DNA of 64,000 bases, from NCBI RefSeq assembly GCF_014204915.1, contig NZ_JACHMH010000001.1, forward strand, positions 8,395,501 through 8,459,500. The letters run 5' to 3'. Source of the stretch: Crossiella cryophila. GTDB taxonomy: Bacteria > Actinomycetota > Actinomycetes > Mycobacteriales > Pseudonocardiaceae. Under the pieces are notes generated by a model that saw nothing but the letters and a program-made list of their open reading frames with translations, had not been told where the DNA came from and did no database searches. Made by a program: the position numbers and the translations under genes. Of this stretch, positions 6,104 to 64,000 are shown one piece after another (positions within the stretch are counted from its first letter, which is position 1; each line of letters starts with the position of its first letter).

Positions 6104-7577
6104 GCAAGCCCCCCAAGAACCGGGTCAGGTCCCGCCCCAACGCCGAGTACCGATGCAACGGATACCCCACATCCAGCCCCAACCCCCCGTGCAGGTGATG
6201 ACAAACCTCCAACGCCCCCAACAACTTCTCCCCCATCCAGTACCCCGCGACATCCACATCCCCCCGATCCCCGACCCCAGCCCCCACTCCCCAGCAAGCT
6301 GCCCGATTGACCACCTCAACCGTCCGAGCCACCACCCGAACATCCGCAACCTGCATAGCCACCGCCTGGAACTCAGCCAATACCCGCCCAAACTGCCGCC
6401 GAGACCCCACATGCCCCACAGTCAGTTCCAACGCCCCACCCAGCAACCCCTCCCCAAAAACACAACCCCCCACCACCCCAAACCACCGCACCTCTTGCAG
6501 AACCCGCCCACTCCGATCCTCCCCAAGCAACCCCACCGGCACAGCCCCGGAAAACCGCAGCGTGCACTCCAACCCCCCAGCGGAAGTAGGCGTCCCCACC
6601 ACCTCAACCCCCGCTCCCCGAAGATCAACCAAAGCCACCCCCCGCCCCCCATCCCCAAGCCCCACCCCAACAAGCCCCCACCGAGCCCACCCCCCAAACA
6701 AAACCCCCACCTTCTTCCCCACCAACCCCTCGTCCCCCCATACCACCTCCCCACGCCCCACAGCCCCGGTAATTCCCTCACCCCCCAACAACATCTCCTG
6801 CTGCGCCGCTGTCCCCAACCGCGCCACCGGCAACACCCCCAACGCCAGATGCGCCACTCCCGGCGAAACCACCCCACCCCGCCCCAGCTCCGTCAACAGA
6901 ACCGCAACCTCAACCACCCCAAGCCCAGACCCACCCAACCGCTCAGGAACAGCCAGCGACAACAGATCCGCCGCCCCCAATCGCCCCCACAACCCATCCC
7001 ACGACGCCCCAGCCCCACCAACACCCGCCCCACCCAACCGCTCGACCGCCGAAGTCGCTGTCGCTGTCGCTGTCGCCCCCAGCCCACCAACGCCCGCCGA
7101 CCCCGCACCCCCTCCCGCCTGCCCCGCCCCAGCCACCGCGGCAGCCGCAGTCAACTGACCAACCCCAGCCAGGGCCGATCCCGCCTCCGACTTTTCCGCC
7201 CCAGCAGAGGCCGATCCCGCATCCAGCTGCCCCACTCCAGCCAACGCCGACCCCGCTAATCCCTGTTCTGCCCCAATCAATGCCGAGCCCGCCAAGCCCC
7301 GCTCTCCCCCTTCCAACGCCGAGCCCGCCGACCCCTGCTCCGCCCCAGCCAACGCCGAGCCAACCGACTCCCGTTCCCTCCTCCCCAACTCCGAGCCAAC
7401 CGCCACCCACCCACGCGCAGCCAGCCCAACACCCCGCGCGCCCTCCACCCCTTGCCCCACCGCGGCCAAGCCCACCCCCGGCACGACCTGCTCCCCTTCC
7501 CCCCAATCCCCTTGCCGCACCAGACTTCTCGTCAACTCCCGAACCGCGACCTGAGTCTCATCAAGCTCAAAATTCAC
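6093..7577 (-). CDS. chsE1: ChsE1-type acyl-CoA dehydrogenase (FadE28-like) with a long repeat insertion
   Basis: 494 residues, against roughly 340 for usual FadE28. The start is the GTG at 7577, overlapping the upstream stop as GTGA; the protein begins MNFELDETQ like its relatives. After about 22 normal residues comes an Ala/Gly-rich stretch to about residue 175, including six 12-residue repeats (73-144). The dehydrogenase fold resumes at LSLAVPERLGGSGLG and runs through SRRQFGRVLAEFQAVA and CHHLHGGLGLD. Operon position and C-terminal motifs identify it as the ChsE2 partner. The insertion replaces or loops out part of the N-terminal helical domain; whether the heterotetramer still forms is unknown. 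Codon use here is rich in GGG/GTT. Confidence 0.8.
   Translation of the reverse strand: MNFELDETQVAVRELTRSLVRQGDWGEGEQVVPGVGLAAVGQGVEGARGVGLAARGWVAVGSELGRRERESVGSALAGAEQGSAGSALEGGERGLAGSALIGAEQGLAGSALAGVGQLDAGSASAGAEKSEAGSALAGVGQLTAAAAVAGAGQAGGGAGSAGVGGLGATATATATSAVERLGGAGVGGAGASWDGLWGRLGAADLLSLAVPERLGGSGLGVVEVAVLLTELGRGGVVSPGVAHLALGVLPVARLGTAAQQEMLLGGEGITGAVGRGEVVWGDEGLVGKKVGVLFGGWARWGLVGVGLGDGGRGVALVDLRGAGVEVVGTPTSAGGLECTLRFSGAVPVGLLGEDRSGRVLQEVRWFGVVGGCVFGEGLLGGALELTVGHVGSRRQFGRVLAEFQAVAMQVADVRVVARTVEVVNRAACWGVGAGVGDRGDVDVAGYWMGEKLLGALEVCHHLHGGLGLDVGYPLHRYSALGRDLTRFLGGLRAY
7146..7361 (-). repeat. Six tandem 36-bp repeats encoding 12-residue units in chsE1
   Basis: The encoded unit is GSALAGAEQGSA with variants (GSALEGGERGLA, GSALIGAEQGLA, GSALAGVGQLDA, GSASAGAEKSEA, GSALAGVGQLTA). 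The first two residues are invariant and the sixth is always Gly. The period is exactly 36 bp, so the array is in frame. Confidence 0.9.
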
Positions 7578-10180
7578 CGCCCCTTCCCCTCTCCCGCAAC
7601 CCCATCCCGAGGCAACCCGAGAACCCGCTCCCCCACCATCGTCAACAACACCTGCGTAGTCCCCCCGGCAATGCTCAAACACCGGCTCAACAGAAACCGG
7701 TGCACCTCAGCCGAATCCCCCACCGCAGCCCCTTCCCCCAACAACTCCGCCGCCACCTCCGCCACGTCCTGCCGATGCCGCACCCCCACCAACTTCCGCA
7801 CCCCGGACTCCGCCCCAGCCTCGCCGCCGGCCACCGCCCGCTGAGTAGCCCGAAGATCCAGCAGTGACAACGCCAACCCGTCCACCACCAACCCGCCAAC
7901 CCGCTCCGCCACCACCGGATCCGCCAGCAATCCCGCCCGCGCCGCGAACGCCAGCACCTCCTCCACCGGCTCCCCCAACGCAGACCCCCGGCTCATCGCC
8001 ACCCGCTCATCGGCCAACGTCCCCCGTGCCAGCCGCCATCCATCCCCCGGCTGCCCCACCACATCCGCATCCGCGACGAACACCTCGTCGAGGAACACCT
8101 CGGCAAACCGGGTATCCCCGGTGATCTCACGTAACGGCCGCACGGATATACCGTCCGACTGCATATCCACCAGGAAGTACGTCAACCCCCGATGCCGCGG
8201 CACCTCGGAATCCGTCCGTGCCAGGCAGATCCCCCGATCCGCCCGATCCGCCAACGAGGTCCACACCTTCTGCCCACTGAGCAGCCATCCCCCGTCGGTC
8301 CGCACCGCCCGGGTCCGCAACGAGGCGAGATCCGACCCAGCCCCCGGCTCGCTGAACAACTGGCACCACCGCACCTCGCCAAGCAACGTCGCTGTGACAA
8401 ACCGCCGCCGCTGCTCCTCAGTGCCGTGCCGCAACAACGTCGGCGCCGCCCACCCCCCGATCACCAGATCAGCCCGGCCAACCCCCACCCGAGCCAATTC
8501 CTCCTCCACCACCAACTGCCCCAAAGCCCCCAACCCCAGCCCATACGGCCGAGGCCACTGCGGCGCGAACAACCCAGCCGCCACCAACGCCCCCCGCCGC
8601 TCCCCCTCGGCCAGCGCGGCAATCCGCTCCGCCGCGACCCGCACCTTCCCCCGAAGCCCCCCAATCCCCAGCACACCTTCATCCCCGCCAACCCCAAGTC
8701 CCACCCCACCGCCACCAACCCCAACCCCATCCGAGCCGGAACCAGCCACCCCACCGCCAACTGCCCCACCCTCGCTGGCTTTGGCCACATCACGATCAAC
8801 CACCCCAGGCCCGGCCCCATCCGCACTGCCCCTGGTCGCCCCGCCGCCAACCACCTCAGGCCAGGGTCCATCCACGGTCGCCCTAGCAGCACCGCCATCA
8901 ACCACCCCAAGCCCAGCCCCATCCGTGCTCGCCTCACCCCGGTTCCCCCGATCCCCCCTCCCCCCGCCAGCAAGGTCCGCACCGCCGTCACCACCCCAGC
9001 CCGAACCGCCGTGGCCCGCACTCCCACCCGTCCCCTGCACACGGCCCACCCCGCCCAGCAGCCCCCCGCCCCCGCCATCGGTCTCCCCCTGCTCCCCGCC
9101 ATCCCCCACCTCAACCCGCAACCGCCGCCGAACCCCCCGCCCCGCCAGCTCCGCGGCCCGCCCCCGCCACCGCACCCCACTCACCCACTGCCGCAACACA
9201 AACGCCCGCCGCAGATACAAATGCGCGTCGTGCTCCCAGCTGAACCCGATCCCGCCCAGCACCTGCACGCAGTCCTTCGCGTTGGCCACCGCCGCGTCCA
9301 GCGCGACCGCCCCCGCGGCCGCCGCCGACAGCGACACCGCGGGCGAGTCCTCCTCCACCGCCCTGGCCGCGTCCCACGCCACCGCGGCCGCCCGCTCAGC
9401 CCGGCACAACATCTCCGCGCACAGGTGCTTGACCGCCTGAAACGACCCGATCGGCCGCCCGAACTGCTCGCGTTCCCTGGCATATCGGCTCGCGATATAT
9501 ACGCATCGACGAGATATACCGACCGCCTCCGCCGCGGCCAGCACCACCGCCCGGTCCAGCACCGCCGCCATGGTCAGGTCCGGCAGTACCCGGTCGGTCG
9601 GGATCACCGCCACCACCTCGACCTCGGCCAGGTCCCGGGAGAAGTCCGTGGCGGGCAACGGCCGCACCCCGGCCTCGCCCGGCGTCAGCAGGATCCACCC
9701 GGTCTCCCCACCGACCGGCACCAGCAGCACGGCGTCCGCACTCGCCCCCAGCACCGGCCCGGTCACCCCGGTGACCAGCAGCCGGCCGGCGGAATCCCGT
9801 TGCGCGGTCAGGGTTCCCGGCGACAGCGCGACCGCGGCTGGCAACCCGCCGACCACGGCGGGCAGCAGATCACGAACGCCTGGCTGATCGGCGAGCACGA
9901 GTCCGGCCAGCGCGGTCGGCAGGATCGGCCCGGGGATCAGGGCCTCGGCGGCGGCCTCCAGCGCCACGGCCAGGTCCACCACGGTGCCGCCGGCCCCGCC
10001 CAGTTCCTCGGGTACGGCGATGCCGGTGACGCCCAGGTCGACCAGCCCCGGCCACAGGCGTCGCCAAGCCGGGTCGCCCCGTTCCTGCGCACGCACCGCG
10101 GCGATGGCGCCCGCGCCCTGTCCATAGGCGAGCACGGACTCGTGCAACGCCTGCTGCTCCGCGGTGACCGCGATCGGCAC
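7574..10180 (-). CDS. fadE34: FadE34-type fused two-domain acyl-CoA dehydrogenase
   Basis: 868 residues: two acyl-CoA dehydrogenase modules in one chain. Module 1 is residues 1 to about 345 (FGRPIGSFQAVKHL, VLGGIGFSWEHD); module 2 is about 505-868 (LFSEPGAGSDLA, SGQKVWTS, CLSIAGGTTQV). In mycobacteria FadE34 is about 710 residues and oxidises the cholesterol side-chain CoA ester; it lies divergent from kstR exactly as here. The extra length is a Gly-rich linker of roughly 140 residues (DNA about 8690-9110). The GTG start at 10180 has TGGAGG upstream. The gene carries two 17-bp-period TA clusters (8131-8168, 9481-9520), which bring rare ATA, CGT, CGA and one TTA codon. It heads the six-gene side-chain operon and probably answers to KstR. 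Confidence 0.85.
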   Translation of the reverse strand: MPIAVTAEQQALHESVLAYGQGAGAIAAVRAQERGDPAWRRLWPGLVDLGVTGIAVPEELGGAGGTVVDLAVALEAAAEALIPGPILPTALAGLVLADQPGVRDLLPAVVGGLPAAVALSPGTLTAQRDSAGRLLVTGVTGPVLGASADAVLLVPVGGETGWILLTPGEAGVRPLPATDFSRDLAEVEVVAVIPTDRVLPDLTMAAVLDRAVVLAAAEAVGISRRCVYIASRYAREREQFGRPIGSFQAVKHLCAEMLCRAERAAAVAWDAARAVEEDSPAVSLSAAAAGAVALDAAVANAKDCVQVLGGIGFSWEHDAHLYLRRAFVLRQWVSGVRWRGRAAELAGRGVRRRLRVEVGDGGEQGETDGGGGGLLGGVGRVQGTGGSAGHGGSGWGGDGGADLAGGGRGDRGNRGEASTDGAGLGVVDGGAARATVDGPWPEVVGGGATRGSADGAGPGVVDRDVAKASEGGAVGGGVAGSGSDGVGVGGGGVGLGVGGDEGVLGIGGLRGKVRVAAERIAALAEGERRGALVAAGLFAPQWPRPYGLGLGALGQLVVEEELARVGVGRADLVIGGWAAPTLLRHGTEEQRRRFVTATLLGEVRWCQLFSEPGAGSDLASLRTRAVRTDGGWLLSGQKVWTSLADRADRGICLARTDSEVPRHRGLTYFLVDMQSDGISVRPLREITGDTRFAEVFLDEVFVADADVVGQPGDGWRLARGTLADERVAMSRGSALGEPVEEVLAFAARAGLLADPVVAERVGGLVVDGLALSLLDLRATQRAVAGGEAGAESGVRKLVGVRHRQDVAEVAAELLGEGAAVGDSAEVHRFLLSRCLSIAGGTTQVLLTMVGERVLGLPRDGVAGEGKGR
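8131..8168. repeat. 17-bp-period TA cluster 1
   Basis: TA steps at 8132, 8147, 8149 and 8164: 8132 to 8149 and 8147 to 8164 are both 17 bp. The half-sites read GTAACG, GGATATACC and GCATATCC. It lies inside the second dehydrogenase module of fadE34, where it gives ATA and TTA codons. Confidence 0.7.
9481..9520. repeat. 17-bp-period TA cluster 2
   Basis: CATATCGG, GCGATATATACG and GAGATATACC. TA steps at 9483, 9500 and 9517 are exactly 17 bp apart, as are 9498 and 9515. It lies inside the first module of fadE34 and is encoded with rare codons (GGT ATA TCT CGT CGA on the coding strand). Confidence 0.75.
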
Positions 10181-11049: not shown

Positions 11050-11181
11050 GGCGGCAGCCGTTGCGGGCGGGGTTCCGGCGCGCCAATCGCGACCCCAGAG
11101 CCCGCCCATCCTCTCCCCAGCCCCGGTCAAACTCGGGCGAACAGCGCATTGACAACGGTTACATTCAGGTCCAGCCTGGTA

Positions 11182-11197
11182 ATGAGAGCGCTCTCAT
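11182..11197. promoter_or_regulatory. LacI-type operator upstream of the GH16 gene
   Basis: ATGAGAGCGCTCTCAT is a perfect 16-bp palindrome with the central CG of LacI-family operators and resembles the CebR box (TGGGAGCGCTCCCA). TTGACA at 11149-11154 is a likely -35 upstream. A sugar-responsive LacI repressor encoded elsewhere probably controls the glycosidase. Confidence 0.65.
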
Positions 11198-11250
11198 GTA
11201 GCAGTCGGAACCCTGCTGACTTCTGTCGTCCTCTTCCCTGGAAGGCAGCC

Positions 11251-12900
11251 ATGACGACACCTGACCTCATTCCCCGTCACCGAACGCTCTCCCGCCCCGC
11301 GCGCACCCGGATCGCCGCGGCGCTGGCGGCCGCGGTGTCCCTGTTCTGCGCCTATCTGATCGTCTTCACCGACCGGGCCGACGCGGTCGTCCCACCGCCG
11401 CCACCCGGCTGGACCCAGGTCTGGGCGGATGACTTCACCGGTCCAGCCGGATCGCTGCCCTCAGGCAACAACTGGATCTTCGACATCGGCCACAGCTATC
11501 CCGGCGGTCCCGCGAACTGGGGCACCGGCGAGATCGCCGCGCACACCAGCAACCCGGCCAACGTCAGCGTCGACGGTGGCGGCAACCTGCGCATCACCCC
11601 GCTGCGCGACGGCGGCGGCAACTGGACCTCGGCCCGGATCGAGACCCGGCGCGGCGACTTCAAGGCCCCGGCGGGCGGCATGCTGCGCATCGAGGGCCGC
11701 ATTCAGATGCCCAACGTCACCGGCGCCGCCGCGCTCGGCTACTGGCCCGCGTTCTGGGCCCTCGGCTCGCCCTATCGCGGGAACTACTGGAACTGGCCGG
11801 GTATCGGCGAGTTCGACATCATGGAGAACGTCAACGGGATCAACTCGGTCTGGGGCGTGCTGCACTGCGGCACGAGTCCCGGCGGGCCCTGCAACGAGAA
11901 GAACGGTATCGCCGCGAACCGGGCCTGCCCCGGGGCGAGCTGCCAGGCGGGTTTCCACACCTACCGCTTCGAGTGGGACCGCTCGGTCACGCCGAACCAG
12001 CTGCGCTGGTACGTCGACGGCCAGCAGTTCCACAGCGTGCGGCAGGACCGGGTGGACGCCGGCACGTGGGCGAACATGACCAACCACGCCGGCTACTTCA
12101 TCATCCTGAACGTCGCCATCGGCGGCGAGTTCCCGAACAACGTCTCGGGCATCACCACGCCGGTCGGCTCCACTGTGCCGGGCAGGCCGATGCTGGTGGA
12201 CTACGTCGCGGTGTGGACGCGCACCACCGGCGGCAGCGACCCGACCAGCACCACGACCACTACCGGCACCACCCCGCCGCCGACCTGCGGAAGGCTTGTG
12301 TCACAAGGACGTCCGGTGTCGGCGTCGTCGGTGGAGAGCCCGAACCAGGCCGCGGCCTTCGCGGTGGACGGCAACCCCGGCACCCGCTGGTCCAGCGGTC
12401 ACCACGAGCCGAACTGGCTACAGGTCGACCTGGGCTCGACGCAGCCGATCACCAGGGTGCGCCTGAACTGGGAGGCCGCCTACGCCACGGAGTACCAGAT
12501 CCAGTTGTCCGGCAACGGTTCCACCTGGACCACCGCGTTCGAGACATACTCCGGCGCCGGAGGTATAGAGGACATCCCCATATCCGGCAACGCGAGATAT
12601 ATCAGGATGCAGGGTATTCGCCGCGCAACGCCATACGGCTTCTCCCTGTGGGAACTGGAGGCCTTCGGCGCCTGCCCCGGCACCACCACCCCGACAAGCC
12701 GCCCCACCAGCACCACCACCGGTTCGACCACGACCACCACCGACCCCCCACCCGGCGGAACATGGGCGCCGAACATGGCCTACGCGGTCGGCCAGGAGGT
12801 GACCTACGGCGGCCGGCGGTACCGGTGCCGCCAGGCACACACCTCGATCGTGAGCTGGGAGCCGCCGAACGCGGCCTCCCTGTGGGAACCGGTTGGGTGA
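11251..12900 (+). CDS. Secreted GH16 endo-beta-glucanase with discoidin and chitin-binding modules
   Basis: 549 residues. A signal anchor or signal peptide covers about residues 20-48. A GH16 domain (about 50-325) has the catalytic motif GEFDIMEN with Glu187 and Glu192. A Thr-rich linker leads to an F5/8-type (CBM32) module at about 350-470, then a second Thr/Pro linker and a C-terminal CBM5/12-like module (NMAYAVGQEVTYGGRRYRCRQ, in part). The family cleaves beta-1,3 or mixed-link glucans (laminarinase/lichenase); the add-on modules suggest fungal cell-wall targets. The ATG at 11251 follows GGAAGG. The discoidin coding region contains the best 17-bp-period TA cluster and an unusual run of ATA, AGA and AGG codons. 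Control by the LacI-type operator upstream is inferred. Confidence 0.88.
   Translation: MTTPDLIPRHRTLSRPARTRIAAALAAAVSLFCAYLIVFTDRADAVVPPPPPGWTQVWADDFTGPAGSLPSGNNWIFDIGHSYPGGPANWGTGEIAAHTSNPANVSVDGGGNLRITPLRDGGGNWTSARIETRRGDFKAPAGGMLRIEGRIQMPNVTGAAALGYWPAFWALGSPYRGNYWNWPGIGEFDIMENVNGINSVWGVLHCGTSPGGPCNEKNGIAANRACPGASCQAGFHTYRFEWDRSVTPNQLRWYVDGQQFHSVRQDRVDAGTWANMTNHAGYFIILNVAIGGEFPNNVSGITTPVGSTVPGRPMLVDYVAVWTRTTGGSDPTSTTTTTGTTPPPTCGRLVSQGRPVSASSVESPNQAAAFAVDGNPGTRWSSGHHEPNWLQVDLGSTQPITRVRLNWEAAYATEYQIQLSGNGSTWTTAFETYSGAGGIEDIPISGNARYIRMQGIRRATPYGFSLWELEAFGACPGTTTPTSRPTSTTTGSTTTTTDPPPGGTWAPNMAYAVGQEVTYGGRRYRCRQAHTSIVSWEPPNAASLWEPVG
12545..12620. repeat. 17-bp-period TA cluster 3 (five exact steps)
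   Basis: TA steps at 12547, 12564, 12581, 12598 and 12615, each exactly 17 bp from the next, in the contexts ACATACT, GGTATAG, CATATCC, GATATATC and GGTATTC. It lies inside the discoidin module of the GH16 gene. Confidence 0.85.
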
Positions 12901-12945: not shown

Positions 12946-13527
12946 TCACCCACGACGCTGGTACTTGAGGAAAAGCACCCCGCTGTCGAACCGGGTCAGA
13001 TCGGCCAGCTCGAACCGATCCGGGCTGAACCCACCGTTGAACATCGGGATCCCCTTGCCCATCACGGTCGGATGCTGCTTCACGAACACCTCGTCGATCT
13101 CCGGCAGCAACGTGGCGGCCAGCCCACCCCCACCAACCAGGAAGATCCCCAGCCCCTCCTGCTGCTTGATCTCCTTGACCTTGGCCAGCGCGTCCCCGGC
13201 GACCAGCTCCACGGTCGGCGCCGCCTCGGTCAACGTCGAGGAGAACACGTAGTGCTTGAGATGCGTGTAGGCATCCGGAATCCCCTGCACCACACCACTT
13301 TCGTAGGACTTACGCCCCTCCAGCACGGTGTCGAACCGGGTGAGTTCCCCCGCGATCCCCAACGCCTCCCGCGCCACGAACGGCAACGTGTCCCCGTAGT
13401 GCTGGAACAGATGCCCCATGTGGTCACCCTCCATGAGGAAATGACCGGACTGCGTCGGATCGCCCCCACCAACCTCCGCGATGAACCCATCCAGAGTCGT
13501 CGCCACGAAGTAAGTCAACTTACGCAT
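12946..13527 (-). CDS. RibD C-terminal / dihydrofolate-reductase-like protein
   Basis: 193 residues of the RibD_C/DHFR-like family: MRKLTYFVATTLDGFIA at the start (typical for the family), EGRKSYESGV, and the NADPH-binding IFLVGGGGLAATLL segment. Members are NADPH-dependent reductases of unknown substrate and are not the essential folate enzyme. The ATG at 13527 has GGGAGG 8 bp upstream. The frame is open well beyond this into a Pro/Ala repeat tract, but the Shine-Dalgarno and family N-terminus settle the start. CGCATATATCGCC overlaps the start region and recurs at 43804-43816. Confidence 0.8.
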   Translation of the reverse strand: MRKLTYFVATTLDGFIAEVGGGDPTQSGHFLMEGDHMGHLFQHYGDTLPFVAREALGIAGELTRFDTVLEGRKSYESGVVQGIPDAYTHLKHYVFSSTLTEAAPTVELVAGDALAKVKEIKQQEGLGIFLVGGGGLAATLLPEIDEVFVKQHPTVMGKGIPMFNGGFSPDRFELADLTRFDSGVLFLKYQRRG

Positions 13528-14867
13528 ATATCGCCTCCCAGAACATCCGCGGGAGCACCCCACACCCCCAACCACTGCAAACATAGTACTCCACCCATAG
13601 TGGTTGCAACGCAGTTCCCCAGTCAGGCACACCCAGCCCAGCTCACGAGCCCTCCACAGCTCGCACCTCTCGGGCAACGGGCAGCGAAATCGCGAGGCGC
13701 GGGCCACGGGCCGCAGCACGCTCCGCGTGCGAGCCGGGCGCAGGCAGCGAGCCGCAGGGCACGGGGCACGGGGCACGGGGCACGGGGCTGGGGCTGGGAC
13801 TGGGACTGGGACTGGGACTGGGACTGGGACTGGGACTGGGGCTGGGGCTGGGGCTGGGGCTGGGGCTGGGGCTGGGGCTGGGGCGCGGGTAACCGGCCAG
13901 CGAACCGCGAGCCGCAGAGCGCCCAGGTGCAACCGCAACGCCGGCGGAACCCTGAGCGATGCCTACTCAGCTGAGAAAAGCCGATGAACGCTCACCCACC
14001 CTCGCGGGCCCCGCCTACGACCTGATCGGGCGACACTTCCACGGCGACTGAGCGCTCATCGGCTGCCACCTCCACGCCGCGAGCCAGACGCCGCCCTGCC
14101 CGGCCAGCCAGGCAGGCACCTCCGGCGTCCAGCCCAGCAGGCATCTCCGGCCGAATCCCCTGCGCCAAGCGCCAAAGCGACAACCAGGACATTTCCCGCC
14201 CCGCCCCAGCTCCCGCCCTGGCCGAATCTCACCCTGGCCAGACTCGACCGCGGACCGACTGGCCCGGCTTCCACCCAGACCGACCATCCCCACCCAGACC
14301 GACCATCCCCGGCCTGGCGACCAGCGCCCCGGCCGGCGACCAGCGCCCACCCCGCGCCCAGCCCCGCGGCTGCTTGCCTGCGCCTCCAACTCGCCTGCGC
14401 CCACGCCGTGTCAGCACGCGCGCCGCGTCAGCTCGCACACCTTGTCGACACGCGCGCCTCGCCTGGGCCCGCGCTCCGTGCGCGGATCGCGCGACCTACC
14501 CGCGAGCGGCCTGCCCGTGGCCTGGCCACATCCCCAGCCCGGCCTGCCCGTGACCCGCCCCATCCCCAGCCACGGCCTGCCGGAGCCTCGGCCTGCCGGA
14601 AACAGCGCCTGGCCTATCCATCTCACCGACCCGGGCCGGCCTCGGCGCTCGCCTCTCCCCCGCCCCGCGCACCGCTTCTTTCTGCGGAACGAAACGATCA
14701 GCCACCAAAGTTCCCCGAGCGATCCACCTCTCGGCGAACAGCCCCGGAATCCACCACCGCAGCGTACCTACCAGCACAAACCAACGCGAACCGAGCCAGC
14801 GACACCAGCTGACGAAGAAAACCGGCGCTAGGACTTGACACGCCGGTGGGCCACCCAGGACTCCGGG
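13528..14867. other. Non-coding low-complexity tract
   Basis: About 1.3 kb with no frame that shows protein-like composition, codon bias or a convincing start. It holds the G-rich minisatellite at 13758-13884 and, from about 14060 on, imperfect short direct repeats (CCAGACCGACCATCCCC twice near 14274-14311; GGCGACCAGCGCCC twice near 14317-14348; runs of GGCCTGCC). It looks like decayed or repeat-expanded intergenic DNA. Confidence 0.6.
13758..13884. repeat. G-rich minisatellite
   Basis: Four GGGCACG units, then about seventeen hexamers, first ACTGGG-type and then GCTGGG-type. Every unit carries a GGG or GGGG run on the plus strand, separated by 2-3 bases, so the tract could form G-quadruplexes. 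It ends about 230 bp upstream of the start of the DHFR-like gene. Confidence 0.9.
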
Positions 14868-16932: not shown

Positions 16933-17148
16933 CTTCGGACGCCGAGTGGCGGACGGACGGCGGACGGCGGCGGGCGGGTGCGCGGGCAGGCCGCGGACGG
17001 CGGGCGGCGGCAGGCAGGCGGGTGCGCCGCAGGCGAGGCTGGGTGGCGACTATCGGCGGATTGACCGGGCGGGACGGGGTCCCGAAGATGGATGAAAACG
17101 TATTCACCATGCCGGGGTCGCCGCCAGCCCGGAGAGGGAGAGTTGGCG

Positions 17149-18609
17149 ATGGGGCCGTCTCGGCGGGACTTCCTGAAGGTGACCGGGCTGGCCGCCGGCG
17201 GCCTGTTGCTCCCCGGCGCGGGGTTCGCGCTCGCGGCGGGGTCGGGCGCCGCGGGCGGAGCGTTGGACGCGAGTGGGTCGCTGAGTGTGGCGGGATCACT
17301 GGACGCGGCTGATCCGTGGGACGCGGTGCCGGGGATCCTGGCCCGGATCGTGCCGCCGACCTTCCCCGCCCGCGACTTCCCCATCACCGCCTACGGCGGC
17401 AAGGGCGACGGCAAGGCCGACAACACCGCCGCCTTCCGGGCCGCCATCGCGGCCTGTGTGCAGGCGGGCGGCGGGCGGGTGGTCGTGCCCGCTGGGACGT
17501 TCCTGACCGGGGCCATCCACCTGGCAAGTAACGTGAACCTGCATATACAGTCCGGCGGTATAATCAGGTTCAGCACTGATCCCGCCAAGTTCCTGCCGGT
17601 GGTGCGTACCCGGTGGCAGGGGATCGAGTGCATGAACTACTCGCCCTTCATCTACGCCTACGAGGCCACCAACGTGGCGCTCACCGGCTCCGGGCGCATC
17701 GACGGGCAGGCGGCCAACGGGCCCTGGTTCGACTTCGACCCCAAACGCCAGCCGGACTGGGAGAAGCTGCAGAAGCAGGCCGTGGACAACGTGGCGCCGG
17801 ACAAGCGGGTGTTCGGCGGGGGGCACTTCCTCAAGCCGAACATGATCCAGTTCTACCGGTGCCGGAACGTGCTGGTGGAGGGCCTCGATATCCGGAATCC
17901 GGCGATGTGGACGATCCACCCGGTGTTGTGCCGCAACGTCACCGTGCGTGGGGTCACCATCTACAGCCGGGGCGGGATGGTGGACGGGGTGGATCCGGAG
18001 GCCAGTGCGGACGTGCATGTCACGGGGTGCACCTTCGACACCGGCGACGATGGCGTGGTGATCAAGTCCGGGCGGGACATCGACGGGCGCCGGGTCGGGG
18101 TGGCCAGCGAGAACATCGTGGTGGAGAAGTGCACGTTCCTGGGCCGGTGGGGGGCGATCGCGGTGGGCAGTGAGATGTCCGGCGGGGTGCGCAACGTCTT
18201 CGCGCAGGACATCACCATCCGGCCTGGCCCCAACTACAAGACCTTCCACGCGGTCTACATCAAGACCAACAAGCGCCGGGGCGGCACCGTGGACGGGGTG
18301 CACGTGCGCCGGCTGACCGCGGACAAGATCGACCGGGGTGCGGTGTTCATCACCATGAACTACAGCCTCACCGGGCCCGGGTTCGGGCCGATCGCCAACC
18401 CTTCCGTGCGCAACGTCACGTTGGACCAGCTCACCGTGCGCGGCACGCCGTGGGCGGTGCGCCTGGACGGCCTCGCGGAGAGCCATATCCAGGACGTGCG
18501 GATCTCCAACAGCACGTTCACCGAGGTCAAGGACACCAACATCTCGATCAAGAACGCGGACCGGACCGTGTTCAGCAATGTGAAGGTGAATGGCAAACCG
18601 GTGTCCTGA
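17149..18609 (+). CDS. Secreted GH28 polygalacturonase-family glycosidase (Tat substrate)
   Basis: 486 residues. A twin-arginine signal SRRDFLKVTGLAAG opens the protein. A pectate-lyase-like right-handed beta-helix follows: DFPITAYGGKGDGKADNT at its start, then GH28 catalytic aspartates in DGVDPEAS and DTGDDGVVIKSG near residue 300, GAIAVGSEMSGG in place of the SHG motif, and VYIKT in place of RIK. The family hydrolyses galacturonan or rhamnogalacturonan; the altered SHG and RIK motifs leave the substrate open. The ATG at 17149 has GGAGAGGGAG upstream; an earlier in-frame ATG at 17092 would bury the Tat signal. A TA cluster (17527-17565) sits in the first helix coils. Confidence 0.87.
   Translation: MGPSRRDFLKVTGLAAGGLLLPGAGFALAAGSGAAGGALDASGSLSVAGSLDAADPWDAVPGILARIVPPTFPARDFPITAYGGKGDGKADNTAAFRAAIAACVQAGGGRVVVPAGTFLTGAIHLASNVNLHIQSGGIIRFSTDPAKFLPVVRTRWQGIECMNYSPFIYAYEATNVALTGSGRIDGQAANGPWFDFDPKRQPDWEKLQKQAVDNVAPDKRVFGGGHFLKPNMIQFYRCRNVLVEGLDIRNPAMWTIHPVLCRNVTVRGVTIYSRGGMVDGVDPEASADVHVTGCTFDTGDDGVVIKSGRDIDGRRVGVASENIVVEKCTFLGRWGAIAVGSEMSGGVRNVFAQDITIRPGPNYKTFHAVYIKTNKRRGGTVDGVHVRRLTADKIDRGAVFITMNYSLTGPGFGPIANPSVRNVTLDQLTVRGTPWAVRLDGLAESHIQDVRISNSTFTEVKDTNISIKNADRTVFSNVKVNGKPVS
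17527..17565. repeat. 17-bp-period TA cluster 4
   Basis: AGTAACG, GCATATACAG and GGTATAATC. TA at 17529 to 17546 and 17544 to 17561 are both 17 bp. It lies inside the GH28 gene and gives two ATA codons and an AGG. Confidence 0.7.
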
Positions 18610-18729: not shown

Positions 18730-19143
18730 ATGCGCGAGGACCACGCGGAGATCGAGACCACCACGATGTTCAACCTGCTGGTGGCGCCGCCGGTGCCGGT
18801 CGAGGTCGAGTTGGGCTACTCGACCTCCGACCCGTACGCGGTGCGCGCCGTGTTCAACCCCGGCGGCAGCGCGAGTGTGGAGTGGATCCTCGCTCGCGAT
18901 CTGCTGGCCGACGGGCTGATCAGTGACAGCGGCGAGGGCGACGTGCGGATGTGGCCGATCCTGGACCAGGTGGACCAGGTCGTCATCGAGTTCACCACCC
19001 CGGCCGGGCACGCGCGGTTCACCGCCGACGCCGAGGAGCTGGCCGACTTCCTCAACCGCAGCTACGAACTCGTCGCCCCGGGCAGCGAGCACGAGTGGTT
19101 CGACTTCGAGCACGAACTCACCCACCTGGGCAACGTCAACTGA
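18730..19143 (+). CDS. SsgA-family sporulation and cell-division protein
   Basis: 137 residues. It matches the SsgA-like family from end to end: PVPVEVELGYSTSDPYAVRA, VEWILARDLLADGL, GDVRMWP, and a C-terminal HEWFDFEHELTHL. SsgA-like proteins occur in morphologically complex actinomycetes; SsgB recruits FtsZ to sporulation septa and SsgA marks sites of septation. Which paralogue this is cannot be told from the window. The ATG at 18730 follows AAGGGCAGC. The gene stands alone, with 120 bp upstream that holds no clear promoter. Confidence 0.88.
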   Translation: MREDHAEIETTTMFNLLVAPPVPVEVELGYSTSDPYAVRAVFNPGGSASVEWILARDLLADGLISDSGEGDVRMWPILDQVDQVVIEFTTPAGHARFTADAEELADFLNRSYELVAPGSEHEWFDFEHELTHLGNVN

Positions 19144-42592: not shown

Positions 42593-43789
42593 ATGCCCGT
42601 TGCACTGCTCGCCCTGGCGATCAGCGCGTTCGCCATCGGCACCACCGAGTTCGTCATCATGGGGCTGTTGCCCGAGGTGGCGGCCGATTTCGGGGTGTCC
42701 ATCCCGGCCGCGGGGCTGCTCATCACCGGGTACGCGCTCGGTGTCGTGGTCGGCGGCCCGGTGCTCACCGCGGTCGGCTCGAAGCTGCCGCGCAAGACGA
42801 TCCTGGTCAGCCTGATGGTGCTGTTCATCGCCGGGAACCTGTTCTCCGCGCTGGCCGAGACCTACGGGCTGCTGATGACCGGCCGGGTGGTCGCCGCGCT
42901 CGCGCACGGCGCGTTCTTCGGCGTCGGCTCGGTGGTGGCCGCGGACCTGGTCGCGCCGGAGCGGCGGGCCAGCGCGATCGCGCTGATGTTCACCGGGCTG
43001 ACCATGGCCAACGTGCTCGGCGTGCCGCTGGGCACCGCGCTGGGTCAGCAGCTCGGCTGGCGGTCCACCTTCTGGGCGGTGACCGTGCTCGGGGTGCTCG
43101 GCCTGATCGGCATCCTCGCCCTGGTCCCGCGCACCCAGGCCGCCCCCGGCGGTGGGCTGCGCGGCGAACTCGCGGTGTTCCGGATCCCGCAGGTGTGGCT
43201 GGCGCTGGCGATGACCACGCTCGGCTTCGGCGGGGTGTTCGCCTCCTTCACCTACATCGCGCCGATGATGACCCAGGTCGCCGGGTTCGCCGGCGGCACC
43301 GTGACCTGGCTGCTGGTGCTCTTCGGCGCCGGACTGTTCGTGGGCAACCTGCTCGGCGGCAGGGCCGCGGACCGCGCGCTGATGCCCAGCCTGTACGTGA
43401 TCCTGGCCGTGCTGGCCGCGGTGCTGTTCACCTTCACCTTCACCGCGCACTCCCAGCTCGGCTCGGTGCTGACCATCGCGGTGTTCGGCATCGCCGGGTT
43501 CGCCACGGTTGCGCCACTGCAGATGCGGGTACTGACCAAGGCGGCGGGTGCGCCCGCACTGGCCTCGGCGGCCAACGTGGCCGCGTTCAACCTGGGCAAC
43601 GCCGGTGGCGCCTGGCTGGGCGGACTGGCCATCGAGAACGGGCTGGGCTACACCGCGCCGAACTGGATCGGCGGCACGCTCACTGTGGCCGGACTGGCGG
43701 TCGCGTTGTTCTCCGGCTGGCTGGACCGGCGCGGGCGCGCGACGATCGACACCGCGTCGATCGAACCGGCCACCGCCCTGGCCCGCTGA
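42593..43789 (+). CDS. MFS drug/sugar efflux transporter (DHA1/AraJ type)
   Basis: 398 residues, 12 transmembrane segments. The first helix reads LALAISAFAIGTTEFVIMGLLP, the signature of AraJ/YdhP-like exporters, and motif C-like GYALGVVVGGP appears in TM2. The ATG at 42593 has GGGAG upstream. It heads an operon with an SDR and an aldo-keto reductase and is opposite MarR, so it is likely to export a toxic compound or its reduced product. Confidence 0.85.
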   Translation: MPVALLALAISAFAIGTTEFVIMGLLPEVAADFGVSIPAAGLLITGYALGVVVGGPVLTAVGSKLPRKTILVSLMVLFIAGNLFSALAETYGLLMTGRVVAALAHGAFFGVGSVVAADLVAPERRASAIALMFTGLTMANVLGVPLGTALGQQLGWRSTFWAVTVLGVLGLIGILALVPRTQAAPGGGLRGELAVFRIPQVWLALAMTTLGFGGVFASFTYIAPMMTQVAGFAGGTVTWLLVLFGAGLFVGNLLGGRAADRALMPSLYVILAVLAAVLFTFTFTAHSQLGSVLTIAVFGIAGFATVAPLQMRVLTKAAGAPALASAANVAAFNLGNAGGAWLGGLAIENGLGYTAPNWIGGTLTVAGLAVALFSGWLDRRGRATIDTASIEPATALAR

Positions 43790-43829
43790 ATACCAGTCTC
43801 CACCGCATATATCGCCGTACTGAATATCC
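43789..43829. repeat. 17-bp-period TA cluster 5 (intergenic)
   Basis: GAATACC, GCATATATCG and GAATATCC, with TA at 43791, 43808 and 43825, exactly 17 bp apart. It starts in the MFS stop codon region and lies 27-65 bp upstream of the SDR start. CGCATATATCGCC at 43804-43816 is identical to 13523-13535. Confidence 0.8.
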
Positions 43830-43855
43830 TCGCCCACGAAAGGCAGCAAGCAGCG

Positions 43856-49400: not shown

Positions 49401-50334
49401 TCTCCACCGTGCAGCCGGCCCGGACGGCGGGTTCGACGATGACCGCGCGCAGTTCGTCGGTGCCGAGCCTGCCGACGACGATCTGCGCGTCTTGCAGGAT
49501 CCCGGCGAGTTCGGGGCGTTGCAGGCAGTGCGTGTAGAAGTCCGAGCGGACCCCGATGACCACCCGGGCCCGGCCGCTGTCGTCGTCGGTGGCCGCGCGC
49601 AGGGCGGCCAGGAAGGCGGAGCGTTCGGCCGGGTCGGCGCAGAGCGTGAACAGTTCCTCGAACTGGTCCACGACCAGCAGGAACTCCGCCTCGGCCGGTT
49701 CGCCCTCGAGCAGTTGGCGCAGCGCGAGCCCGAGGTTGCGCGGTTGCTCCCGCAGGTCGGCGACCAGTCCGCCGGCGGGGGTGCGCAGCCGGGCGGCCAG
49801 GGCCACCGCGCATTCCTCAAGGGGGCGGGCGCCGGGGGTGATCACCAGCGCGGGCCCGGCCTTGGGCAGCACGCCGGCGCGCAGCACCGAGGACTTGCCG
49901 GAGCCGGAGGCGCCGACCACCGCGACGAAGCGCCGGGTGGTGAGCAGGTCGAGGAGTTTGCGCACCAGGTCGGCGCGGCCGAAGAACCGGTCGGCGTCCT
50001 CGGCCTGGAAGGCGGCCAGTCCCGGGTAGGGCGGCTGGTCGGCGTCGGCCTCGCGCGGACCGGCCGGTTCGAGTTCGGCGACCGTGTCCCGCCACCGCTG
50101 TTCCCAGTCCGCTTCCGCGCCGCCGCAGGCCCGGACGTAGGCGAGGGTGACGGCCAGGCTGGGCAGCCGGTCGCCGCGCGCGGCCTGGGCCAGGGTGGCC
50201 ATGGAGAAGTGCGCCCGGCGGGCGAGTTCGCGATAGCTCGGGTTCCCGGCCTGCTGACGCAGCACGCGCAGCTCACCGGCGAAGCGCTGGACCGGTCCGG
50301 CAGCCGGATCCAGCGGACGTTCTGGACGTGGCAT
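46495..50334 (-). CDS. nSTAND1-type ATPase with N-terminal HTH and C-terminal WD40 propellers
   Basis: 1279 residues. N-terminal HTH at about 15-65 (YRELARRAHFSMATLAQAARGDRLPSL, in part). The nSTAND module has Walker A GASGSGKSS at 141-149 and Walker B LLVVDQFEELF. A winged-helix/helical part follows, then one transmembrane helix (AVALLTVMLVLSVVATGFAV) and about 14 WD40 repeats with motifs such as VRLWDVRD and FSPDG, probably two propellers. The HTH side would be cytosolic and the propellers outside, or the helix may be a buried core. The family is a common sensor/ATPase of multicellular actinomycetes; targets unknown. The ATG at 50334 is chosen; the frame is open to 50394. Confidence 0.88.
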   Translation of the reverse strand: MPRPERPLDPAAGPVQRFAGELRVLRQQAGNPSYRELARRAHFSMATLAQAARGDRLPSLAVTLAYVRACGGAEADWEQRWRDTVAELEPAGPREADADQPPYPGLAAFQAEDADRFFGRADLVRKLLDLLTTRRFVAVVGASGSGKSSVLRAGVLPKAGPALVITPGARPLEECAVALAARLRTPAGGLVADLREQPRNLGLALRQLLEGEPAEAEFLLVVDQFEELFTLCADPAERSAFLAALRAATDDDSGRARVVIGVRSDFYTHCLQRPELAGILQDAQIVVGRLGTDELRAVIVEPAVRAGCTVETALVTRLVADAAGRPGVLPLVSHALLETWRRRRGTTLTLAGYDAVGGIEHAVARTAEEVHSGLTEDQRALLRRILLRLTALGEGTEDTKRRIHRGELDTADPDTALVLDRLTAARLLTRDGDTVEITHEALIRSWPRLRGWLTEDREGLRVHRQLTEAAAGWETDHRDPGALYRGSRLAVAKDWATRNDATLSAGERRFLTDSLAEQARQDQTDRRRTRRLWQAVALLTVMLVLSVVATGFAVDSQRMADEERTTTLAQQVSDRAISLRGTNPALAARLSLAAYRLAPIPETRGNLLSTNATHYASPLTEQGNTVGAAMYSPDGRHLVVANQNSTLSLWDVSDRRHPYRLRTLHGHRGPVVALAYRPGGGVVASGGAGVLFWDVSDPRQSKEIGRLPWQGAPVSALAFDRSGGLLAVAGVDGVVELWDVRDPAAAKPRAKFKDARTVHGMAFSPDGRTFAIAGSGDQPVRFWDIRDPAAPRQLGSLQVARSGNLPVDRQTAFGAAFNHDGTLFATGAVDRSVRVWDLRDPANPVALPHLEGHRDTVFDLTFSPSGDTLVSAALDNDIRVWHLRDRARPRAGAVLSKHTDIVRSVVFHPDGTTLASGSLDQSVRLWDFANPERPVELPELSAHSGPVRTAVLHPNQKLLATGSADRTVRLWDVRDQRHPKLVKVLPGHDDVVYDVRFSPDGSLLATATLDGKVRLWSVTDLAEVTLRGTLEGHEDGVLSVAFAEGGATLITGSIDSTVLMWDIRDPANPRRGAQLTSPTDAIMAVSYNEKTRILAAAAADRSVRLWRIEDYQRATALATAGGHQDLPYSVAINPEGTLVASTGADHSVRMWDIRNPADPKLVEAKTEHGNTTYSVAFSPDGRTLASTGADQTLRLWEVSAEGRLTESAVLALHKDRVYSGQFSPDGKTVVSGGHDGVVLLWDADPEQAAAAVCGLPEAELTEQEWDQYFPGVPQRSQCT

Positions 50335-60164: not shown

Positions 60165-60994
60165 CGGCGGAACCGCCAGGTCTTGCTGTCGAAGGCCACG
60201 CAGATGCTCGGCGAGAGCACGACCACCCGCAACGTGCCGTCCCGGAAGTCGTAGTCGATGCCCTCGACCTCGAAACTGCCGGAACACCCGCTCTGCAACG
60301 GCAACTGGCCCAGCTCCCGGACCACCCCCCGGACGTCCGTGCCGCCCAGCGCGGCGTCCAGATCGACCTGGAGCAGCTGTTTGCCCGGCCCGTCGGAGGG
60401 GCAGAGCAGCTGCGTGGCCGAGGTGAACTCGCAGCCCTGGAGGTTGCTGACGGTGCGGTCCAGCCGGATCGCGAAGGCGTACGGCAGGTTCTTGCCCGGA
60501 TCGGTGACGGTCACCCCCGGGTTGGGGAAGACCAGCAGCCGGTTCATCTCACCCCACTCCCCTGACACCAGCCACCTGGCGTCGGGGGAGACGGCGGCGA
60601 AGGAGTTGTTGATGGCCTCCCAGGATTCCAGCTGGTGCACGTATTCCGCCCACCGGCCGTCCGGGGTCTGCACCCGGAACATCTTGGCGCGCAACGTGCT
60701 GCTCTGGTACGGCTCGACGTAGACGCCCGCGCGGGAGCCGGGGTCGCCGACGTGGTCCCAGCCCCTGGTGCGCACGTCGAGGGGGATGGTGCCGATGCCG
60801 GTGTAGCGGATGGATCCGTTGCCGTTGCGGATGATCGTGGTCAGGCCCTGGCTCTCATCCAGTGGGCGGGCGTAGTCGGAGCCGAGGGTCCGCCAGGGAC
60901 CGACATCGGCCGAGGCAGGCAGGGCGCCCAGGATCAGGGCGGTCGAGACGAGGATGGCGGTGGCGGCGCTGCGCAGGGCGTTCCTGCGGGTCAT
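60161..60994 (-). CDS. Secreted protein of unknown function
   Basis: 277 residues. Signal peptide 1 to about 30 (ALRSAATAILVSTALILGALPASA in part). The mature part is beta-rich with propeller-like blades (FAAVSPDARWLVSGEWGEMNRLLVF, in part), paired cysteines (LQGCEF, LLCPSDG, SGCSGSF, SICVAF) and no catalytic motif. The ATG at 60994 overlaps the stop of the upstream LuxR-type regulator as ATGA, so both come from one mRNA. Confidence 0.7.
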   Translation of the reverse strand: MTRRNALRSAATAILVSTALILGALPASADVGPWRTLGSDYARPLDESQGLTTIIRNGNGSIRYTGIGTIPLDVRTRGWDHVGDPGSRAGVYVEPYQSSTLRAKMFRVQTPDGRWAEYVHQLESWEAINNSFAAVSPDARWLVSGEWGEMNRLLVFPNPGVTVTDPGKNLPYAFAIRLDRTVSNLQGCEFTSATQLLCPSDGPGKQLLQVDLDAALGGTDVRGVVRELGQLPLQSGCSGSFEVEGIDYDFRDGTLRVVVLSPSICVAFDSKTWRFRR

Positions 60995-62010
60995 GCTCGC
61001 TCCTGGGGGACGGACGGATGGCGCGGCGGAGCCGGTTCGGACCCTACCCGGCCACGCTGGCCGCGGTCGAGCATTCCGCGGTCGAGTAGTCCCAATGCGG
61101 CCGCGCGCAACCCGGCCTGGAACCGGCTGGTGGCGCCGAGGGTGTCCATCAGCGCGCGGACGTGGCGTTGCGCGGTGCGCAGGCTGACGCCCATGCGCAG
61201 CGCGATGGTCTTGTCGGTGAGCCCGGCGGCGAGCAGTTCCAGTACCCGCCAGTCCACGCCGGGGGTGGCGTGCTGGCCGGGCAGTGGGGCGGCGCGCTGC
61301 CAGGAGTGCTCGAACAGCGAGCGCAACCCGGTCAGCAGGGCGGAGGCGGAGACCAGCAGCGCGCTGTCGGTCTCGTGGCCGATGGCCACCGGCAGGATCG
61401 CCCAGCGCCGGTCGACCAGGCCGAGTTTGGTCGGCAGTCCGGGCAGCACCCGGATGCGTTCGCCACGGGATCGCCTGCGGTGCAAGGCGTCCAGCACGTG
61501 CGCGCAGTCCACATAGGACGCGTCGTAGACGGTCCGGTAGACCACACCGGCGGCCAGCGCGCCCCTGGCCTCCTCGTTGGCCGCGCCCGCGACGTAGGGC
61601 GGCCGCTCGAACTGGCACACCTCGAACCGGGCGGCGCGCTGCAACCCGGCCCAGCGCCGCCCGATCGCGGCGTGCCCGCGCAGCAGCTCGACCGGGCCGT
61701 GGTTCTCCGAGTCGCCGGTGGCCCGGTCGTAGATGGTCATCAGCGCCGGGATGAGCGCGCGCACCCGGTGCAGCCGCTGGTGGTGGGAGACGATGTAGGA
61801 CTCGATCGCCGAGTCCGGCGGCACCCTGGTCCAGCGCCCGTCGGCGCCGACCACCAGGCCGGCCTGGTCGAGGAAGGTGAGCAGGTCGGCGGTGTGCGCG
61901 GGGTCGAGGCGGGCGGTCAGGGCCAGTTCGTCGGTGGTCCAGGACGGGCGGGTCAGCACGATCTCGTAGACGCGCTGTTGATCAGCGGTGAGGCCGAGCA
62001 CCTCCAACAT
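60991..62010 (-). CDS. LuxR-type regulator with TrmB-like N-terminal HTH
   Basis: 339 residues. The N-terminal winged HTH is TrmB-like (LTADQQRVYEIVLTRPSWTTDELALTA, in part). The middle is a sensor region with YVDCAHVLDALHRRRSRGERIRVLPGLPTKLGLVDRRWAILP (in part). The C-terminal LuxR HTH is LELLAAGLTDKTIALRMGVSLRTAQRHV. This family is common in actinomycetes, often beside secreted proteins. The ATG at 62010 has GGAG 9 bp upstream. It is co-transcribed with the secreted protein that follows. Confidence 0.82.
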   Translation of the reverse strand: MLEVLGLTADQQRVYEIVLTRPSWTTDELALTARLDPAHTADLLTFLDQAGLVVGADGRWTRVPPDSAIESYIVSHHQRLHRVRALIPALMTIYDRATGDSENHGPVELLRGHAAIGRRWAGLQRAARFEVCQFERPPYVAGAANEEARGALAAGVVYRTVYDASYVDCAHVLDALHRRRSRGERIRVLPGLPTKLGLVDRRWAILPVAIGHETDSALLVSASALLTGLRSLFEHSWQRAAPLPGQHATPGVDWRVLELLAAGLTDKTIALRMGVSLRTAQRHVRALMDTLGATSRFQAGLRAAALGLLDRGMLDRGQRGRVGSEPAPPRHPSVPQERA

Positions 62011-62094
62011 GCCACACACTCCGAGCAGCAGGGGTACTCGACATCTACCGCCCCGGGCGGCGGGAGGCTACCCGCCGCCCGGAGGGTCACCCAC

Positions 62095-63051
62095 CTACGC
62101 GGCGGCGGGTTGCCTCGCCGCGACCGTCGCACCGGCCAGGGTCCACGCGCTGTGCGCGGCGGCGTTGGTGGCCACGCCCATGACGTTGGCGGCCACGTTG
62201 GTGATGGTGTCGCAGCGCTGGTGGTAGCAGGGATCGTTGCCACTGCCGATGCCGCCGACCGGGACGCCGACCCTGGCGAAGCTGGCGTGGTCGGAGCGGC
62301 CGCCGATGCTCATCGTGCGGGTCGGGATGCCCTTGCCGCGGAAGTAGGCCTGGAACATCTGCTGGATGCTCGCGTTGTCGTTGTAGACACCCCAGGTGGT
62401 GGTGCCGCGGGCGCCGACCATGTCGAAGTTGAGGTAGCTCTTGATCTTCGCGCGTTCGGCGGCCGGCAGTGCGTTGACGTAGTAGCGGGAGCCGATCAGG
62501 CCGAGTTCCTCAGCGCCCCACCAGCCGAAGCGCAGTTTCTTCTGCGTCACCAGTTTCTCCCTGGACACCGCGAGGGCGGTCTCCAGGGCGGCGGCCGAGC
62601 CGGAGGCGTTGTCGTTCATGCCCGGTCCGGCGGTCACCGAGTCCAGGTGGGCGCCCAGGAACACCACCTGGTTGGCGTCGCCGCTGGTCCAGTCCGCGGT
62701 GAGGTTCCAGCCGGTGGCGCCGTTGTGGGTGAAGGACTGCAGGGTGGTGCGGAACCCGGCGGCGTCCAGCTTGCCCTTGACGTAGTCGATCGAGGCCCGG
62801 TAGCCGGGACGGCCGTGCGCCCGGTTGCCGCCGTTGCGATCGGCGATGGCCTGGAACTGCTGCATGTGCGCCATCACGTTCGCGTCCGGGATATTCGGCG
62901 GCGCGGCATATATCGGTGCGCTGAGTATCGCGGCCGCGCGGGCCTGGCCGGTGCTGGAGGCCGCGATCGCCGGGGCGGCGAGGGAGAAGCCAAGCAGGGC
63001 AACGGTTGTCAGCGCGGTGAGGGCCCGCGAGACTGTCCTTGTCACAGGCAT
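62095..63051 (-). CDS. Secreted M28-family aminopeptidase
   Basis: 318 residues. Signal peptide 1 to about 31. Zinc ligands of M28: His-x-Asp in GAHLDSV, Asp in NDNASGS, Glu pair in WWGAEELG, Asp in NFDMVG, His in RSDHASF. The motif [21 protein letters not shown] is typical of Streptomyces griseus-type aminopeptidases, which remove hydrophobic N-terminal residues. The ATG at 63051 has GGAG upstream. TA cluster 6 lies at the end of the propeptide region. It is divergent from a close paralogue at 63199. Confidence 0.9.
   Translation of the reverse strand: MPVTRTVSRALTALTTVALLGFSLAAPAIAASSTGQARAAAILSAPIYAAPPNIPDANVMAHMQQFQAIADRNGGNRAHGRPGYRASIDYVKGKLDAAGFRTTLQSFTHNGATGWNLTADWTSGDANQVVFLGAHLDSVTAGPGMNDNASGSAAALETALAVSREKLVTQKKLRFGWWGAEELGLIGSRYYVNALPAAERAKIKSYLNFDMVGARGTTTWGVYNDNASIQQMFQAYFRGKGIPTRTMSIGGRSDHASFARVGVPVGGIGSGNDPCYHQRCDTITNVAANVMGVATNAAAHSAWTLAGATVAARQPAAA
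62889..62930. repeat. 17-bp-period TA cluster 6
   Basis: GGATATTC, GCATATATCGG and GAGTATCG, with TA at 62892, 62909 and 62926, exactly 17 bp apart. It is inside the M28 peptidase gene, giving ATA TAT and AAT ATC codons. It resembles cluster 5 closely: GCATATATCG-N8-(A/G)TATC in both. Confidence 0.8.
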
Positions 63052-63093
63052 GAGCACGCTCCTAGGGTCCGGGAACCTACGGCCGCACGCTAG

Positions 63094-64000
<907 letters not shown>

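Follow-up and report, generated by a model that had tools for sequence, protein, structure and literature searches.

Arrays of ATAT boxes spaced 17 bp apart around a padR gene of Crossiella cryophila as probable extra operators of an autoregulating PadR-family protein

Many genes of Crossiella cryophila surrounding the gene for a PadR-family regulator contain arrays of short AT-rich boxes at a spacing of 17 bp. Judged from sequence comparison, these arrays are probably extra operators of that autoregulating protein, at which it would bind and act. The window analysed here is a stretch of 64,000 nucleotides, positions 8395501-8459500 of the single 10,058,141-bp contig of the genome (G000:C1); positions up to 64,000 are counted from its first letter, and longer numbers are genome positions.

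Inside the window, TA steps at 12547, 12564, 12581, 12598 and 12615 are separated by exactly 17 bp. Further in-phase triples of TA steps at this spacing are found at 9483, 43791 and 62892, and at 8132-8164 and 17529-17561 ATAT boxes give 17-bp pairs in two registers, without a single in-phase triple. A sequence-only reading of this DNA had described the steps at 12545-12620 and five similar clusters, and these are present in the sequence as it described them; its assignment of the clusters to four genes and one gap also holds, while its figure of about 72% G+C has to be corrected to the 70.5% measured for the window. Counting TA triples in the window gives six at step 17 against 0-3 at each other step from 5 to 39. 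In 464 kb comprising the window and its surroundings there are 13 triples at 17 bp. All are situated at or to the right of 8.405 Mb, and the triple at 8596500 falls outside the array region and has no motif. None occurs in a 400-kb sample of the same genome with 3703 TA steps, composed of twenty 20-kb pieces spread evenly over the chromosome, one of which falls inside the left flank of the region. A 12-bp box matrix built from 25 boxes and summed over three boxes at period 17 likewise matches 64 positions in the 464 kb and none in the 400-kb sample.

The proposal that the pattern exceeds chance, which the same reading had wished to see checked against codon-shuffled controls, is borne out: synonymous-codon shuffling of 125.6 kb of regional coding sequence produced a mean of 0.25 triples and a maximum of three in 1000 shuffles, against nine observed. 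Pairs of TA steps at 17 bp numbered 32 in this coding sequence, against 12.9 expected from the shuffles. An excess is seen at 15 bp too (50 pairs against 35.7 expected, reached in 0/1000 shuffles), and barely at 19 bp (18 pairs against 12.9, reached in 80/1000), as expected from ATATAT boxes spaced about 17 bp. Another codon-shuffle control, in which some array stretches were left unshuffled, gave a mean of 5.18 and a maximum of eight, against 12 observed (0/400).

The padR gene is located 91 kb beyond the right end of the window, at 8549906-8550238 on the minus strand (PF03551, E 2.1e-19), and overlaps a gene for a putative membrane protein (judged by eye, with no family match). Its promoter contains paired boxes with TA centres 15 and 17 bp apart. 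We compared 30 padR loci, of which five of this genus and 14 of other genera have the box pair, the remaining 11 having been excluded by eye as distant paralogues or variant boxes. In 14/14 of the other-genus promoters the TA spacings are 15 and 17, just before the starts, and this spacing accounts for the 17-bp rule of the arrays. In 13/13 named loci, the start of padR has at most 45 bp upstream of it the beginning of an operator that scores 19.5 bits or more. One of these loci is Crossiella itself and two overlap the training set of the matrix; they include Longimycelium, Microtetraspora, Sphaerimonospora, Saccharothrix, Lentzea and Amycolatopsis. The padR of Crossiella sp. S99.2 is 99% identical. 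A distant class of PadR paralogues (L126, L128, L120, L121, L118) has different operator-like boxes, of the TATATCCAC and GTGGATA types, which also stand before the gene, in several genera.

The matrix used for these scores, 30 bp long, was derived from the 14 padR promoters of other genera and includes no sequence of Crossiella. At 16 bits or more, it matches 26 positions in the 464-kb region of G000, and these fall into 14 of its 15 clusters (13 known and one new); the fifteenth, the array at 8388450, scores 15.8 bits, equal to the best chance hit. The 400-kb sample has no match at 16 bits or more and six at 11 bits or more, with a maximum of 15.8, and in 260 kb of a same-genus genome, G003, the padR promoter is the only match. 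With the threshold lowered to 15 bits, the 464 kb of G000 yield 16 clusters, of which 15 belong to the region and one, scoring 15.1 bits, is 286 kb away from padR; G001 yields 15, G002 and G004 11 each, all of the same genus, and G003 one. A model built from the sequences alone of these 14 promoters (R2), run over the five whole genomes, returned seven hits at E<=1 (E 0.2-0.9), all of them in the array regions of G000, G001 and G004; at this threshold it found none in G002 and G003, missing even their own padR promoters, and is thus an insensitive model. On these matches, the array unit can be assigned to the half-operator of an autoregulated PadR-family gene. The sequence-only reading knew of no matching described site, which may stand for the exact sequence, as the open-licence literature yielded no match for a ATATATCG-type PadR operator or for operator arrays, but not for the unit, which has its counterpart in the padR half-operator.

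Two of the arrays of the window lie inside a gene for an acyl-CoA dehydrogenase fusion (7574..10180, minus strand). The first, at 8130..8171 (20.1 bits on the padR promoter matrix, as for all scores that follow), has boxes at 8132, 8147/8149 and 8164, and is conserved in G001, G002 and G004 and absent from G003; the second, at 9481..9520 (23.9 bits), has three boxes 17 bp apart. The five-box array at 12545..12620, common to G000 and G001 only and among the weaker matches (16.3 bits), is in the F5/8-type-C part of a GH16 gene (GH16 / F5-8 type C / CBM5_12, 11149..12900, plus strand). Next to it, a single two-box operator at 13523..13554 on the minus strand (genome position 8409025; 20.8 bits, and 25.0 bits in G001) is a new cluster that had gone unnoticed in the sequence-only reading, and overlaps the probable ATG (GGAGGCGATATATGCG) of a RibD_C (dihydrofolate-reductase-like) gene, whose start codon was placed from the family match, beginning at residue 140 of a long ORF. 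The array at 17527..17565 (22.8 bits), in a GH28 gene (17092..18609, plus strand), has a core that is identical in G001 and G002 and recoded in G003. A three-box array at 43785..43831 (22.3 bits) overlaps the end of an MFS gene and precedes an SDR gene by 25-70 bp, and another at 62886..62932 (25.4 bits) is near the 5' end of a peptidase M28 gene (62095..63150, minus strand). All gene calls are those of a simple caller and of ORF lists.

Some neighbouring genes of the region deserve a mention of their own. An SsgA-like sporulation/cell-division protein (18730-19143, plus strand) adjoins the GH28 gene, and a 1299-aa protein with an nSTAND1 NTPase and WD40 repeats, a type often tied to signalling or defence, is encoded at 46495-50394 on the minus strand. 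To the right of the window, L033:7133-11257 (genome 8466633-8470757) codes for a Roadblock/LC7 protein within a four-gene block that presumably resembles a conservon, two of its genes being 99-100% identical in G001, G002 and G004, and L033:5848-6945 (minus strand) for an aromatic prenyltransferase-like protein (Trp_DMAT).

Five of the 15 clusters of G000 are at gene starts (padR, RibD_C, SDR, GH64 and a sigma-70-region-2 protein) and ten inside gene bodies, namely those of an HMGL-type aldolase, the acyl-CoA dehydrogenase fusion (two), GH16, GH28, peptidase M28, a molybdopterin-binding oxidase, a DUF6228 protein, a sugar-binding protein and GH18. The sigma-70-region-2 gene is preceded by the palindrome CCCGTCATATATCG-N5-CGATATATGACGGG, and a perfect palindrome at 8565303 is present in G000 and G001 only. 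At the DUF6228 gene (L036:12750-13196; G001:C38:364018) the protein has apparently diverged between G000 and G001, from a translation made by eye, and a TA array is kept in both at the corresponding place. Host functions are mixed; polysaccharide or peptide hydrolases account for 5/15 loci against 2/37 sampled neighbours (p=0.016, post hoc; 40 genes were picked evenly from 107 neighbours, 37 of them were counted, and the other three are no hydrolases). The arrays do not share a consistent orientation, seven of 14 fitting one way and seven the other.

The arrays are confined to the surroundings of padR, reaching at most 162 kb from it on one side and at most 18 kb on the other. This confinement, and the additional arrays beyond the window (genome 8388430-8568146), had escaped the sequence-only reading. 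The genome-wide scan suggested by the sequence-only reading was run with a model of 12 arrays, again built from sequence only (R1), which scored 150 of 378 first-look candidates over the whole chromosome. All of its 21 hits (E<=10) are inside 8,388,428-8,568,148, about 180 kb or 1.8% of the chromosome; they are mostly the arrays on which the model was trained, and nothing comparable appeared elsewhere on the chromosome. A chromosome-wide pattern, such as the spread of sites of a global nucleoid-associated protein, was rejected on this distribution and on the lack of triples in the 400-kb sample.

Searching 60 genomes (G000 itself included, and some of them drafts) with R1 gave 16 hits in G001, 13 in G002 and 14 in G004, which make up one syntenic stretch of 136-166 kb in each except for G004:C11:50617 and G001:C38:38698. 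The arrays of these relatives are mostly in the same genes as those of G000, with some turnover; one near padR (381001) was found only in G001. In G003 the hits are at one place only, the padR promoter, and its single remaining site is directly before padR. Outside the genus, R1 gave weak hits in seven genomes (E 0.06-0.48), and the sole hit in one of them, G014 (C25:32364), is the padR promoter. A scan of the padR surroundings in five other genera, 51-95 kb per genus, with a matrix made from the G000 boxes revealed no arrays around the gene. Four had only the promoter site at full strength; G010 has two padR promoters and an equally scoring site 0.75 kb downstream of a padR start, which means that a lone additional site can also occur outside the array-bearing clade, and both G010 and G011 have one 17-bp TA triple. 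Multiplication into a region-wide set is seen only in this genus.

The sequence-only reading also proposed testing whether the clusters are conserved at synonymous sites in relatives, and they are. Of the TA steps removable by a synonymous change, those within arrays are kept in 20/21 cases in G001, 15/20 in G002 and 16/16 in G004, against 93/167, 51/148 and 45/117, respectively, for steps of the same class outside arrays in the same region (p 2e-4, 1e-3 and 1e-6). Counting all TA steps without the synonymous filter gives a weak signal (p=0.33, 0.39 and 0.037), perhaps as tyrosine codons fix many of them. In G003, which has most of the same genes in synteny at roughly 65-95% protein identity, 0/14 removable array TA steps are kept against 19/109 elsewhere, which is not significant alone (p=0.12). 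The simplest reading is that the arrays were gained after the split from G003, and they look as if kept by selection on synonymous sites. Together with the codon shuffles, this conservation supports the earlier view that the clusters, which override codon choice, look like sites of a DNA-binding protein and not like a protein repeat.

The PadR interpretation would run as follows. The TA steps would be the centres of ATAT boxes, each box being a half-site for the PadR-family repressor, and in four genomes of the genus these sites form 11-15 clusters, many of them lengthened to 3-5 boxes at 17 bp. PadR dimers would bind the boxes and repress padR itself and, through the operators at gene starts, the RibD_C, SDR, GH64 and sigma-70-like genes. 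At the ten gene-body arrays, dimers placed side by side may build a nucleoprotein obstacle at which transcription halts or slows down, or else fold the DNA locally; such placement on multi-box arrays is plausible given the two LmrR dimers on one operator in passages of PMC5428041. The outcome would be a regulon whose members all lie near the gene of their regulator, and a ligand releasing PadR, as in LmrR, would switch the regulon off. The predicted monomer of the protein (pLDDT 94.4) has Rv3488 and LmrR as its nearest solved folds.

Several observations sit less easily with PadR operators. The spacing of the boxes is wider than that of the canonical ATGT-N8-10-ACAT, the five-box array is weak as an operator at its 16.3 bits, and the location of 10/15 clusters in gene bodies argues against simple promoter control. 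PadR alone leaves the limits of the sites, at 162 kb and 18 kb, unexplained. Further, the DNA-binding part of PadR is similar in G003, so that the presence of PadR is no predictor of arrays; a basic C-terminal tail common to the four array-bearing species differs there.

A different role for the same protein is possible, if a good deal less probable than operators of a regulon: PadR-bound arrays could serve as a regional DNA-organising or silencing device, in which dimers on arrays far apart form bridges and so fold the 180-kb region into one domain. The repressor might, on this tentative account, have turned into a regional chromatin protein in one Crossiella clade, acting in cis, with some 15 phased operator arrays conceivably written by point changes into unrelated genes around padR. 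The mixed function of the host genes, the preponderance of gene bodies, the strict confinement to one region and the maintenance of arrays against synonymous drift speak for such a device. On the other side, the predicted fold is that of an ordinary PadR monomer (from a monomer-only model), five of the 15 clusters are at gene starts, and the post hoc over-representation of hydrolases hints at a regulon.

It is rather unlikely that the arrays are decoys which titrate PadR and so tune its autoregulation. Many copies inside gene bodies and an autoregulated repressor would suit this role, and passages of PMC5428041 report that the level of LmrR is set by autorepression against adsorption to DNA. 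Decoys, however, need not cluster at the gene, yet the whole-genome scan found none elsewhere, and the five clusters at gene starts also count against them.

We regard it as improbable that another protein binds the arrays and that the padR promoter is merely one of its targets. The best candidate, judged by its distribution, is P0001, a 342-aa regulator with a LuxR/GerE-type C-terminal HTH encoded inside the region (60991..62019, minus strand), which shows 93-97% identity across the three relatives with arrays, while its best match in the array-less G003 reaches only 41%. Against it, the boxes precede padR both in G003 and in genera whose best relative of P0001 is at most 51% identical, and its own start has no array, the nearest being about 870 bp upstream.

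A chromosome-scale element of the parS, matS or Ter type, serving segregation or the termination of replication, is very improbable. Its attraction is that many sites are scattered in the coding sequence of one region, and that PadR proteins have been modelled on the replication terminator protein RTP, as mentioned in part of PMC3506622. In G000, dnaA at 1.15 Mb and a dif-like site at 6.13 Mb put the array region mid-arm. With circular chromosomes assumed, the distance of the region from dnaA amounts in G000, G002 and G003 to 54-57% of that between dnaA and the pole opposite it; the dif-like sites are elsewhere, at 6.13, 4.76 and 0.23 Mb, respectively, and both dnaA and the dif-like site are far from the region in G002 and G003. 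The site of G000 (G000:C1:6126649-6126670), which has one mismatch to the dif consensus, has the same 22 bases in G002 and G003; GC skew of the chromosome was uninformative. The arrays thus show no concentration around dif or oriC of the kind known for matS, Ter and parS, and from the positions of dnaA and the dif-like sites a role in origin, terminus or partition was rejected. The evenly divided orientation of the arrays and the existence of G003, which lives without them, also oppose such an element. The suggestion of the sequence-only reading, a protein for chromosome organisation or partition, accordingly finds no support in arrays that occupy one mid-arm region, at 8.388-8.568 Mb on a chromosome of 10.06 Mb.

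Certain tyrosine and isoleucine codons do supply TA steps, but an origin by chance, or as a side effect of codon usage or of protein repeats, is refuted by the controls above: the observed number of triples was reached in 0/1000 codon shuffles, no 17-bp triple occurs across 400 kb of samples, and the steps are conserved at synonymous sites.

If the arrays are indeed operators of PadR, a regulator would have had its operators multiplied within coding sequences nearby and maintained there through selection at synonymous positions, and the sister species that lacks the copies would serve as a natural control. The clustering of transcription-factor sites near the factor's own gene would then become testable, as would intragenic operators as roadblocks versus architecture and the birth of a regional regulon.

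Among known systems, RTP/Ter, MatP/matS and ParB/parS also have many sites in one chromosome region, partly in coding sequence, and archaeal AspA is a PadR-like spreading protein. The Crossiella arrays differ from the first three in lying neither at ori nor at ter, in involving a regulator-type protein and in being absent from a sister species. Intragenic binding has been described for CRP of M. tuberculosis (PMC4117774) and for E. coli sigma-54 (PMC4591121), in maps which, in the passages available, are genome-wide, whereas the arrays of Crossiella are phased, occupy the regulator's neighbourhood only and are synonymously conserved. Two dimers of LmrR bind one lmrCD operator according to passages of PMC5428041, a known case of neighbouring half-sites occupied by more than one PadR-type dimer; these passages describe one promoter site and no intragenic arrays, unlike Crossiella. 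PadR-s2/LmrR, bcPadR1 and Listeria LltR and LstR belong to the same protein family and fold as Crossiella PadR. With autoregulated PadR repressors, a habit of the family reported in parts of PMC3506622 and PMC6624303, Crossiella padR shares an operator at the start of its own gene and the overlap with a putative membrane protein gene. The canonical PadR operator, as given in part of PMC3506622, is an ATGT/ACAT inverted repeat with an 8-10-nt spacer; the Crossiella boxes, ATAT(AT)CG with TA centres 15/17 bp apart, depart from this ATGT-N8-10-ACAT form, and known PadR operators also differ from the arrays of up to five boxes, mostly in gene bodies, that are spread over 180 kb. The protein has the family match, padR has a conserved site upstream and the arrays share the pattern of its promoter, so that, as far as sequence can tell, they are most likely a variant operator of an autoregulated PadR, apart from the canonical form.
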